DNA of 64,000 nt from Lutimaribacter pacificus (GTDB taxonomy: Bacteria; Pseudomonadota; Alphaproteobacteria; Rhodobacterales; Rhodobacteraceae): contig NZ_FQZZ01000001.1 in assembly GCF_900142185.1 (NCBI RefSeq), forward strand, positions 248,001 to 312,000, given 5' to 3'. The translations under genes and the position numbers were made by a program. Positions 24,049-46,359 of the stretch are shown here, in pieces. Position 1 is the stretch's first letter. Each line of letters starts with the position of its first letter. Below the pieces are notes generated by a model. That model was given only the letters and a program-made list of their open reading frames with translations, had not been told where the DNA came from and made no database searches.

Positions 24049-24426
24049 ATGCGCTTTGCCACACCCACCCGCCGCCAGCCGCCCGAAAGCATCGTGCCGA
24101 TGATCAACGTGGTGTTTCTGCTGCTGATCTTCTTCCTGATGACCGCCCAGATCGCGCCGCCCGACCCGTTCGAGATGGCGCTGCCGCAGGCCGGTCAACA
24201 GGCCGAGATCGCGGGCGACGCGGTGCTGTGGCTGTCGGCCGAGGGTATCCCGGCGTTGTCCGGGCAGACCGGCGATGCCGCCTGGGCCGCGCTTGGCGCG
24301 CTCGATCCCGATACGCCGGTGACCATCCGCGCCGACCGCGCGCTGCCCGCGGTGGACCTGGCGCGCGTGTTGCAAAGGCTTGGTGCGCTTGGGTTTTCCG
24401 CGATCGAACTGGCGGTGCAGCCATGA
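24049..24426 (+). CDS. exbD: ExbD/TolR protein, second copy
   Basis: This 125-residue paralogue has ESIVPMINVVFLLLIFFLMT, in which Asn replaces the proton-carrying Asp seen in the first copy (PMIDVV). The periplasmic part is otherwise ExbD-like. A pair with one Asp and one Asn suggests a heteromeric stator in which only one subunit type carries protons. It lies 5 bp after the first exbD and overlaps tonB by 4 bp. Confidence 0.92.
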   Translation: MRFATPTRRQPPESIVPMINVVFLLLIFFLMTAQIAPPDPFEMALPQAGQQAEIAGDAVLWLSAEGIPALSGQTGDAAWAALGALDPDTPVTIRADRALPAVDLARVLQRLGALGFSAIELAVQP

Positions 24427-25235
24427 GGGCGCTGGCAGAATACGCGGCTTTCCTGGCGCTGTCGGTGGGGGCGCATGTGCTGGTTCTGTCGCAGCCCGGC
24501 GGCGTCGGCGGCGGCCCCGGCGGCGAGGCGCCGGTGACGCTGGCCGCGATGCCGGGGGACATGGCGGAAATGGTGGCGGCCTGGACCGCGCCGCCCGAGG
24601 CGCAGGACAGCCCGGCCACGCTGGCGCCACCGCCGCTGTCCGATGTTGCACGGGTTCCGCCCGCCGTTGCGGACACGGCGCTTCGCCAGCCCCGGCCGAC
24701 CGGGTTGCCGGTGCCCGATGCGCCCCGGACTGCGCCGCAGGTGGACAGCACCGTGCCGCCGCCTCCTGAGGAAAAGGTGGAATCCGTTGAAGATCAAGAG
24801 GTTGCGCCGCCACCTTCAGCCACTCGCCCGGTCGCGCGCGTGACGCCCGAGGCACCGCGCCCGGCGCAGAAGGCCAGCGGGCAGGGCGCCGCGCCGCAGG
24901 CTGGCACGGAACGGGCGAAGGTTGAGAAACAGGCAGGCCCGGGCGCGTCGCAAACCCGCAGCCTGATGGCGCAATGGGGGGGGCGGATTCACGCAAGTAT
25001 CGAAAGAAACAAGCGTTTTCCGCGCGGCACGCGGGCCTCGGGGCGGGTCGGGTTGCGCATCACCCTGTCGCATGACGGGCGGTTGCAGGCGGTGTCCGTC
25101 ACCCGGTCGTCGGGCCACGCGGCGCTGGACCGCGCGGCGGTCGAGGCGGTGCGGCGCACACGGTTCCCGGCCGCGCCTAGGGGGCTGGCGGCGGGGCATC
25201 ACAGGTTCAATCTGCCGGTCTCGTTCGGTGGTTAA
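24423..25235 (+). CDS. tonB: TonB family protein
   Basis: This 270-residue protein has an N-terminal span (YAAFLALSVGAHVLVL), a long Pro/Ala-rich periplasmic linker with VPPPPEEKVESVEDQEV, and a C-terminal TonB domain (about 185-270) with GRVGLRITLSHDGRLQAVSV and ALDRAAVEAVRRTRFP. It passes energy from ExbB-ExbD to BtuB. It is the last gene of the cobalamin operon; its stop lies inside the first AACCGCGCGGTT palindrome. Confidence 0.92.
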   Translation: MRALAEYAAFLALSVGAHVLVLSQPGGVGGGPGGEAPVTLAAMPGDMAEMVAAWTAPPEAQDSPATLAPPPLSDVARVPPAVADTALRQPRPTGLPVPDAPRTAPQVDSTVPPPPEEKVESVEDQEVAPPPSATRPVARVTPEAPRPAQKASGQGAAPQAGTERAKVEKQAGPGASQTRSLMAQWGGRIHASIERNKRFPRGTRASGRVGLRITLSHDGRLQAVSVTRSSGHAALDRAAVEAVRRTRFPAAPRGLAAGHHRFNLPVSFGG

Positions 25236-25413
25236 CCGCGCGGTTTCGGGCGGATAGCGCGCGATTCCTGACGAAACATTAACCAAAACCGCGCGGTTCC
25301 CGGGGATGACCGCGCGGTTTTGCCATGTCCTGCGGGGCCGGTAAGGCGAAACCGGGGGCATTTGCGTGGAATTTCCCGCAAACCGCGCGGTTCTGGCGTG
25401 AAACCGCGCGGCG
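25234..25413. repeat. helically phased array of AACCGCGCGGTT palindromes
   Basis: Copies lie at 25234-25245, 25287-25298, 25308-25319 (first base G) and 25381-25392, with a part-matching copy at 25402-25413. Centres are spaced 53, 21, 73 and 21 bp, close to 5, 2, 7 and 2 turns of DNA. Weaker matches at 25255-25266 and 25350-25361 fall on the same phase. The array fills the gap between convergent tonB and the deacylase gene. I know of no named element that matches it. Confidence 0.8.
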
Positions 25414-25429
25414 TTAACCTGCGCCCCGT

Positions 25430-26593
25430 CTATGCCGCCACCAGCCCGTCGCAGAGTCGTTCCAACATGGCGACGCATTGGCGCAGCTGGTCGGTGCTGA
25501 CGAATTCGTCGGCTTTGTGCGCCTGCTCGATCGAGCCGGGGCCGCAGACCACCGCGCTCATCCCCAGCGACTGGAACAGCCCCGCCTCGGTGCCGAAGGC
25601 CACCACGTCGGCGCCGTTCTGGCCGGTCAGGCGCTGGATGATGTCGCGCGCCTCGTTCGCGGTGGTGGGTTCCAGCCCCTGCACCTCGCCGATCACCTCG
25701 GTGGCGATGGTCGCAGCCGGGTGCACTTCGCGCATCGCGGGCAGCAGCACGTCATTGGCGTAGCGCGCGATTTCCCCGGTGACATAGGCCTTGTCCGACG
25801 CCTGCACCGGGCGCAGTTCCCATTCCACCTCGGCGTCGCCCGCGATCACGTTATGGGCCACGCCGCCGTGGATGCGCCCGACCTGAAGCGTCGACCAGGG
25901 CGGATCGAAGCGGCTGTCCTGCGGCGCGCGGGGTTTCAGATCCTCGCGCAGCTCCAGCAGGCGCATGATGTAGCGCGCGGCGTATTCCACCGCCGAAACG
26001 CCGAGGTCGGGGGCCGAGCCGTGCCCTTCCAGACCGTGAAACCGGGTGGTGTATTCGCAGCAGCCCTTGTGCCCCTCGATGATGCGCATCATGGTCGGTT
26101 CGCCGATGATCGCGGTGGCGGGGCGCAGGCCGGTTTCGGCCAGTTCGCGCACAAGGTGCTGCGCGCCGAGGCATCCGACCTCTTCGTCATAGGTAAAGGC
26201 GAAATGCACCGGGCGGCGCAGGTCGGCCTGCGCCAGCGTCGGGGCCATCGCCATCGCGGCGGCGATAAACCCCTTCATGTCGCAGGTGCCGCGGCCATAG
26301 AAATTGCCGTCGCGCGCCACCATTTCGAACGGGTCGGCGGACCAGCCGTGTTCCTCGGCGGGCACCACGTCGGAATGGCCCGACAGCACGATGCCGCCAT
26401 CTGTTTCGGGGCCGATCGTGGCAAAGAGGTTCGCCTTGTGGCCGCTTTCGTCGGTCATGACCTGCACATGCGCGCCCACATCGCCCAGCCGGTTTGCGAG
26501 ATAGGCGATGAGTTCGAGGTTGCTGTCGGCCGACACGGTGGGAAAGGCGATGAGATCGCCGAGGATGCCGACCGTCTGTTCGAACCTGTCCAT
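25430..26593 (-). CDS. argE: ArgE/DapE-family deacylase, acetylornithine deacetylase-like
   Basis: This 387-residue M20 metallopeptidase has metal-site motifs LSGHSDVVPA, GRGTCDMKGFIAA and TYDEEVGCLGAQ, and the dimerisation domain starts near GLEGHGSAPD. The late His motif is GSIEQAHKADEFVS. It matches ArgE, which converts N-acetylornithine to ornithine, though other N-acyl amino acids are possible. The start at 26593 has AGGAAAGGG before it. It stands alone between the palindrome array and a dispersed repeat. Confidence 0.88.
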   Translation of the reverse strand: MDRFEQTVGILGDLIAFPTVSADSNLELIAYLANRLGDVGAHVQVMTDESGHKANLFATIGPETDGGIVLSGHSDVVPAEEHGWSADPFEMVARDGNFYGRGTCDMKGFIAAAMAMAPTLAQADLRRPVHFAFTYDEEVGCLGAQHLVRELAETGLRPATAIIGEPTMMRIIEGHKGCCEYTTRFHGLEGHGSAPDLGVSAVEYAARYIMRLLELREDLKPRAPQDSRFDPPWSTLQVGRIHGGVAHNVIAGDAEVEWELRPVQASDKAYVTGEIARYANDVLLPAMREVHPAATIATEVIGEVQGLEPTTANEARDIIQRLTGQNGADVVAFGTEAGLFQSLGMSAVVCGPGSIEQAHKADEFVSTDQLRQCVAMLERLCDGLVAA

Positions 26594-26718
26594 GTGCTGC
26601 CCTTTCCTGTCCGTGCATTCCACGCATATCCGGCTGGCGCGGCGATGCAAGCCCCTGCGCGACATGATCGGGGCGGGATGCGCAGTCGGCGGGGGCTTTG
26701 GGCCCTGAGCCCGCATTT

Positions 26719-46293: not shown

Positions 46294-46325
46294 AACCGCG
46301 CGGTTTCTGGACAAATCCGCGCGGG
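46294..46325. repeat. paired CCGCGCGG palindromes, 21 bp apart, before gltX
   Basis: AACCGCGCGGTT (46294-46305) is followed by AATCCGCGCGGG (46314-46325, one mismatch on each side). The centres are 21 bp apart, the same spacing as in the array at 25234-25413. It ends 34 bp before the gltX start codon, so it could act as an operator. Confidence 0.65.
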
Positions 46326-46359
46326 TGTGCGATGGCCCGCGCCAACAGGAGACATCCCG

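Follow-up and report, generated by a model that had tools for sequence, protein, structure and literature searches.

An array of short palindromes at positions 25234 to 25413 of the 64,000-nucleotide stretch that we analysed (the window) turned out to belong to a set of paired sites scattered over the genome, and it is the spacing of these pairs, not the number of copies of the word CCGCGCGG, that lies far beyond chance. The window's genome (4.42 Mb in 29 draft contigs) contains 41 occurrences of CCGCGCGG-13 bp-CCGCGCGG, that is, two words 21 bp apart from centre to centre, against none for the reversed control. Within the family, this double-site system was shown to be restricted to one genus, that of Lutimaribacter saemankumensis. 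We lean towards reading the pairs as double operators of one sequence-specific DNA-binding protein, genus-peculiar or peculiarly specific, which the arrays would nucleate for chromosome organisation.

Paired sites and six-site arrays

When gaps of 0 to 30 bp were searched, 50 pairs of CCGCGCGG were found in the window's genome, with 41 at a gap of 13, three at 24 and six singly at other gaps (control: 3 pairs). The binomial probability of this excess at gap 13 is about 1e-52, assuming that the 31 gaps are equally likely, and the random spacing elsewhere in the genome that the preliminary description of this DNA had set against its own claim of phasing was not seen in the genome-wide search for 21-bp pairs. 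Pairs with A/T flanks and at most two mismatches number 90, and those with at most three mismatches 114, against none for either control. Strong conservation in the 41 pairs is limited to the two cores with their A/T flanks and does not extend to the middle of the spacer, and the spacers of scattered pairs are unrelated to one another. The site can be written as about AAACCGCGCGGTTT, the pairs being symmetric sites of 12-14 bp that stand 21 bp, or two turns, apart.

Twenty of the 29 contigs, 790 kb together, carry no exact pair where 6.6 would be expected, although they include one with a near pair (C11) and one with an array (C15). Two of the three exact-pair-free contigs that were tested resemble conjugative plasmids. 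Since the sampled contigs are lower in GC and hold fewer copies of CCGCGCGG itself, a chromosome-only rule for the pairs is not established, and the absence of exact pairs from the 20 contigs may be an effect of composition. As a separate observation, the first 20 kb of contig C7 (L205) of the same genome, which is plasmid-like, match a plasmid of Sagittula sp. P11 at 99.8% identity, an indication that DNA has recently moved from one genus to another.

In the window, the array is made of five copies of CCGCGCGG and one degenerate site, forming three pairs (A, B and C) whose sites have no strand. Site A1 (AACCGCGCGGTT, 25234-25245) overlaps the stop codon of a tonB-like gene on the + strand (24423-25235; TonB_C, PF03544; start from a simple gene caller), which ends within it, and the degenerate site A2 (TAGCGCGCGATT, 25255-25266) lies 21 bp from A1. 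Pair B consists of B1 (AACCGCGCGGTT, 25287-25298), 53 bp from A1, and B2 (GACCGCGCGGTT, 25308-25319), 21 bp from B1, while pair C consists of C1 (AACCGCGCGGTT, 25381-25392), 94 bp from B1 where most other arrays have 104-105, and C2 (AACCGCGCGGCG, 25402-25413), 21 bp from C1. Between pairs A and B there is a motif on the + strand, TTCCTGACGAAACATTAAC (25265-25283), for which the array consensus is approximately TTCCTGACRAARGGTTAAC, and the right border is CGTTAACC (25412-25419, + strand), a TTAA being found 3′ of pair C in 14 of 16 arrays. The convergent neighbour of the array is a gene of the M20 peptidase family on the − strand (25430-26623; Peptidase_M20, PF01546).

Reading of the sequence bore out the five copies and the start-to-start spacings of 53, 21, 73 and 21 bp given in the preliminary description. 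It had also listed two weaker matches in phase with the others: the one at 25255 stood, being the second member of pair A in the recurrent layout, with a full or degenerate site at this place in all other 15 of the 16 compared arrays, whereas the one at 25350 (AACCGGGGGCAT) was dropped, as the columns kept in the 16 arrays spell no site there. By itself the word CCGCGCGG is only slightly more frequent in the window than expected, with 26 copies against 18.6, and 5 of 100 shuffles reach 26; since it is common in GC-rich DNA its five copies in the array are by themselves unremarkable. The array of the window, whose layout recurs elsewhere, is confirmed as real. The window has another 21-bp pair (AACCGCGCGGTT and ATCCGCGCGGGT, 46294-46326, no strand) upstream of gltX, a gene named by TIGR00464, and this pair is kept in L. 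saemankumensis.

All 16 loci with three close pairs share one layout, in which the sites of pair A stand at 0 and 21, those of pair B at 53 and 74, and pair C begins at 147, 157 or 158. The distance from A to B is 53 in all sixteen, or about 5 turns, and that from B to C is 94 in three, 104 in eight and 105 in five, or 9 or 10 turns, the whole array spanning 14 or 15 turns and about 180-190 bp. Ten further loci, chosen by pairs A and B (the first four sites) alone and read as arrays by eye, all contained pair C. It stood at 158 in five of them, at 148 in two, at 147 in two and at 157 in the remaining one. Its scores were 1.0-2.5, compared with 4.0 for the best-scoring of 2000 places drawn at random from another genus. 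The block search for A and B from which these loci came gave, with at most three mismatches, 12, 17 and 6 matches against 8, 6 and 1 in the control, and since the mismatch level of the control matches is not given, our count of arrays is based on the readings of the layout and not on the block search.

Altogether 26 six-site arrays were read, 10 in the window's genome and 12 and 4 in two congeners, several of them orthologous to one another; two (L147 and L148) have the same flanking genes in one metagenome-assembled genome (MAG) and are possibly strain variants, which would make the 26 perhaps 25, and the MAG was sampled in 20 regions rather than at every site. Pair C stands at 147-148 in seven of the 26, the window array being of the 147 type, and at 157-158 in nineteen, and nowhere between. 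For example, at a thiolase locus it is at 158 in L. saemankumensis and at 147, one turn less, in the MAG. Some loci with two pairs fit the same layout, at distances of 157 (L116) and 94 (L162), and others depart from it, at 54 (L164, L166), 81 (L040), 279 (L032) or, overlapping, 21 (L084). The near-integral turns between array pairs in three species, along with the genome-wide 21-bp rule, support the proposal of the preliminary description that the sites face one side of the helix, as expected of an array bound by one protein.

The DNA between the pairs has motifs of its own. The word CCTGAC, part of approximately TTCCTGACRAARGGTTAAC, follows pair A in 9 of 16 arrays and pair B in 6 of 16, and the nine after pair A all fall among the 12 arrays of two species, with none in the four of the MAG. 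By eye we also observed a GGTRTCATGNTACC-like palindrome in the long B-C gap of 11 of the 26 arrays (L147, L148, L089, L150, L219, L220, L221, L222, L224, L225 and L226), the window array being without it, and in those 11 the CCTGAC- or CCTAAC-like word after pair B is absent except in L220 and L226. There may thus be two subtypes of array, with and without the GGTRTCATGNTACC-like palindrome, and the inter-pair motifs (CCTGAC..GTTAAC and GGTRTCATGNTACC) suggest a second component that lies outside our main explanation. Motifs of the GGTATATT type, partly with an inverted copy, occur up to about 40 bp from several pairs (L037, L050, L051 and L053, and L060 in the MAG). The word GTATATT occurs 6 times in 12.6 kb near sites, against 2 times in 210 kb elsewhere in the same loci.

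Distribution and conservation

One genome from each of 148 other genera of the family gave 0-3 near pairs (at most three mismatches), with 0-5 in the controls, and among the 149 family genomes, one per genus, only that of the window has more than three exact or more than three near pairs. The congeners compared were L. saemankumensis DSM 28010 and the MAG KhS_metabat.39 (G150). Exact pairs number 41 in the window's genome, 41 in L. saemankumensis and 7 in the MAG (reversed controls 0, 0 and 1), and the MAG has 32 near-consensus pairs against none in its control. In two related genera, represented by 400 kb of G009 and 360 kb of G027, no palindromic word with an excess at 21 bp was found, about 4 exact or about 10 near pairs being expected per 400 kb at the density of the window's genome. 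The 6-mer count at 21 in G009, 12 against a mean of 4.9, is slightly high, with no single word behind it, and is matched by those at 18 and at 47. At the limited power that such lengths allow, these two genomes thus gave no sign of a concealed equivalent based on a different word.

A scan of genome_contigs (84,980 species), from which the window's own records were possibly left out, matched the exact 22-base pattern in 24 stretches. L. saemankumensis accounts for 14 of these, KhS_metabat.39 for two and one further Lutimaribacter for one, with single matches in a Myxococcales MAG and an alphaproteobacterial MAG. The remaining matches are in MAGs of Tannerella (2), Verrucomicrobiales (2) and Phycisphaerales (1), where arrays with the same core and a period of 21 occur. 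Like those of Lutimaribacter, these arrays repeat AACCGCGCGGTT or close variants every 21 bp, but they are mostly minisatellite-like, with similar spacers at few loci, and the three groups have 26, 7 and 3 near pairs. In the Tannerella MAG (L070, 3765-4020 and 6622-6715) we observed a 12-copy tandem array of 21-bp period with AACCGCGCGGTT as well as a degenerate 21-bp array of another palindrome, CACACGTGTG. The array most like that of the window in style is one of 21-bp period in the Phycisphaerales MAG (L066, 396-593), with units that vary in both core and spacer. Palindrome arrays with a two-turn period may form a wider class. The exact 22-base pattern had no match in viral_contigs, on which ground we rejected a phage origin of the sites, and the window array had no blastn match among plasmids.

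The sites are kept in place between species. Thirty of the 41 pairs of the window's genome have an aligned partner in L. saemankumensis and the other 11 have none among the loci fetched. Twenty-three of the thirty were exact; after removal of L051, with an alignment of 63 bp, there remain 22 of the 41 with an exact pair in the corresponding position, in alignments 76-90% identical, and L036, with two pairs in a 215-bp alignment, is also not orthologous. At intergenic loci such as L026, L031, L043 and L044 the cores and their distance are unchanged although spacer and flanks have diverged; in coding pairs such as that of glmU the spacer is kept as well. Several arrays have a counterpart at the same locus in another species. 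A comparison of four orthologous array pairs with equal spacing gave agreement at 138 of 144 core positions and at 231 of 463 positions of the inter-site DNA. This core conservation was partly selected for, since the L. saemankumensis loci (G156) had been fetched for their exact pairs. A further array pair (L038/L116), compared apart, agrees at 30 of 36 core positions and at 109 of 190 overall.

Six-site arrays have common borders and internal motifs and in this respect resemble copies of one element, as would be the case if the sites had been left behind by a mobile repeat of the MITE or REP kind, dispersed over the genome and palindromic at its ends by chance. This origin is highly improbable in our view, given that the spacers of scattered pairs are unrelated and that arrays stand at the same loci across species with cores that outlast the rest. 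The glmU pair, the one gene on which a mobile repeat as the source of pairs was put to the test and rejected, occurs in two species, and the other 28 of 30 aligned loci, that of the MAG included, lack it. The GlmU proteins align gap-free but for a single residue deleted in one protein, with no insertion at the site in the 30 loci, and the pair thus arose by substitution in place. We note separately that the GlmU of the MAG (L134) shows only 70% identity to its counterpart in the window's genome, where genes of array loci shared with the congeners are about 80-98% identical, which we read as gene replacement or contamination of the MAG.

Genomic setting and protein binding

According to gene positions from a simple in-house caller, 27 of the 41 exact pairs lie between genes and 14 in or overlapping genes, L023 among the latter only overlapping a gene end. 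Arrays are at convergent junctions in 21 of 26 cases and at tandem junctions in the rest. Convergent junctions make up 9 of 23 junctions with sites against 16 of 111 others in the window's genome (p 0.003), 12 of 27 against 18 of 113 in L. saemankumensis (p 0.0004) and 13 of 18 against 1 of 32 in the MAG. The preliminary description had reasoned that the position of its array between convergent genes makes promoter control unlikely. Enrichment between convergent genes holds, but confinement to them does not, as 14 of the 41 exact pairs are coding and some pairs lie upstream of genes; there may be promoter effects at some of them, for example at gltX.

The main rival to our reading is that the sites are protein roadblocks at gene 3′ ends, at which double operators stop or slow RNA polymerase, mainly between convergent genes, and insulate neighbours. 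This agrees with the more frequent convergence of site junctions in all three genomes, as well as with the pairs at tandem junctions, which are closer to the upstream stop than to the downstream start in 8 of 11, 11 of 12 and 3 of 6 cases in the window's genome, L. saemankumensis and the MAG, respectively (array members counted singly). A terminator scan of 24600-26100 found none, though it allowed loops of 3-8 only and would miss stems such as those of the pairs. However, 14 of the 41 exact pairs are inside genes, and the pairs, whether the 41 exact or the 114 near ones, are too few for more than a small part of the gene ends of a 4.4-Mb genome. Roadblocks would not need to keep helical phase across 15 turns, and the double ARG box of Escherichia coli, with the same geometry, is reported in a passage of PMC6640053 to be no efficient roadblock. 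We hold this alternative to be rather unlikely.

It is less probable still that the pairs are operators of an ordinary global transcription regulator with a regulon not yet recognised. Some pairs do lie upstream of genes (gltX and the divergent cases), and repressors such as ArgR ordinarily bind double operators with a two-turn spacing, as a passage of PMC6640053 has it, yet few of the junctions with a site are divergent (3 of 23, 5 of 27 and 1 of 18 in the same three genomes). Genes beside or around pairs include pgi, glmU, a gene for a molybdopterin-binding dehydrogenase, one for an AcrB-type pump, rlmJ, recO, a ppx-like gene and the ribosomal L29 gene. No common pathway was evident among 50 such genes in a Pfam analysis, in which some were without a family, and a shared-pathway regulon was rejected on this basis.

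A very different explanation is that each pair encodes an RNA hairpin acting as a bidirectional intrinsic terminator between convergent genes. The frequent convergent setting would suit it, and the pair at 25287-25319 can indeed fold on both strands (z -4.0 and -4.4), with weaker folding for the pair at 25381 (z -1.5 and -2.3) and around A1 (z -1.6 and -0.4). Two of the 16 arm columns exceed shuffles at p <0.05, namely 2/30 (p 0.04, with 3 of 27 deviating rows compensated) and 7/25 (p 0.01, one row). The other 14, however, are not above shuffles at p 0.05, and compensation is rare in the 154 distinct pairs, with, for example, one of 38 deviating cases at columns 9/23, three of 38 at 10/22 and five of 86 at 12/20. 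The loop has a fixed length where variation would be expected, no Rfam family matched in five array loci, and one third of the exact pairs are in coding DNA. The T runs after the second core are mostly of 2-4 (6 in L022 and 5 in L053). Since the arm positions of the pairs are mostly without covariation, the constraint is shown to act on DNA and not on an RNA stem. After the folding, the scarce covariation of the arms led us to disfavour hairpins, which we consider barely credible.

Double operators of one DNA-binding protein, the reading that we favour, would work as follows. To judge from the symmetry of the site alone, each palindrome would be bound by one protein dimer; the two halves of a single site show no covariation in the 154 distinct pairs from the three genomes. 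Two dimers on the same face of the helix, exactly two turns apart, would probably touch and make a cooperative contact. The same protein may bind all sites and bridge or loop the DNA between them, and the six-site arrays may nucleate it for chromosome organisation, in the manner of the sites of MatP, SlmA and Noc. A chromosome-wide role of the putative protein is suggested by how many sites there are, how widely they are spread and how little they depend on what the genes nearby do, while their bias towards gene ends would also suit a roadblock. Either of the roles suggested for the window array, chromosome-organising or transcription-ending, may apply.

Known systems and significance

None of the known families considered displays all of its defining traits at these sites. 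MatP (matS), SlmA (SBS) and Noc (NBS) each have tens of short palindromes chromosome-wide, in and between genes, with no shared pathway. The Lutimaribacter pairs likewise form many sites in and between genes, on draft contigs of which some are plasmid-like; however, the sites of MatP, SlmA and Noc are single and not known to form obligatory two-turn pairs or six-site arrays, and their words differ. In enterobacteria, REP/BIME palindromes are found at gene 3′ ends or between convergent genes as copied sequences conserved along their length. Such copy-like conservation, also expected of a MITE, is absent from the scattered pairs, which have only cores, flanks and phase in common, and partly present in the six-site arrays; unlike REP elements, the Lutimaribacter pairs have unrelated spacers and a spacing fixed at 21 bp.

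ARG boxes are AT-rich. In the double ARG box of ArgR, two 18-bp palindromic boxes with 3 bp between them lie 21 bp apart from centre to centre on one helix face (a passage of PMC6640053). The Lutimaribacter pairs have this 21-bp centre-to-centre geometry of palindromes, but the ArgR/AhrC family regulates arginine genes and its word differs. ArgR was rejected as the binder: Arg_repressor (PF01316) had no match in any of 20 genomes, including the window's, G149 and KhS_metabat.39, with 9 of 14 control genomes positive. The CIR repeats of the alphaproteobacteria Caulobacter and Brucella are described in a passage of PMC2229807 as dispersed intergenic elements of about 110 bp with inverted repeats. 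They have a conserved GANTC in long stem-loops. GANTC occurs in only 4 of the 16 Lutimaribacter arrays, at differing places, and what these arrays keep, in contrast to CIR, is mainly their sites and phase.

The 12-mer of the site was not found in the open-licence papers searched, of which 493 contain the 8-mer. A strict double-site rule with phased arrays is not known from any established family of dispersed chromosomal protein sites. Tentatively, and with less confidence than for double operators as such, we propose a nucleoprotein system of the genus's own, in which a candidate protein would read the two-turn double palindrome as a scattered chromosomal address and build a complex of six sites and 14 to 15 turns at about ten loci per genome, mostly where genes converge, to anchor loops or to mark the borders of domains.

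Strictly two turns apart, confined within the family to one genus and kept at orthologous positions while the intergenic DNA around them changes, the sites offer a handle for finding a putative chromosome-wide DNA-binding protein. The restriction of pair C to 147-148 or 157-158 offers a ready-made way of testing whether helical phase matters across 15 turns, and the convergent setting ties the sites to how bacteria handle colliding transcription and chromosome folding.
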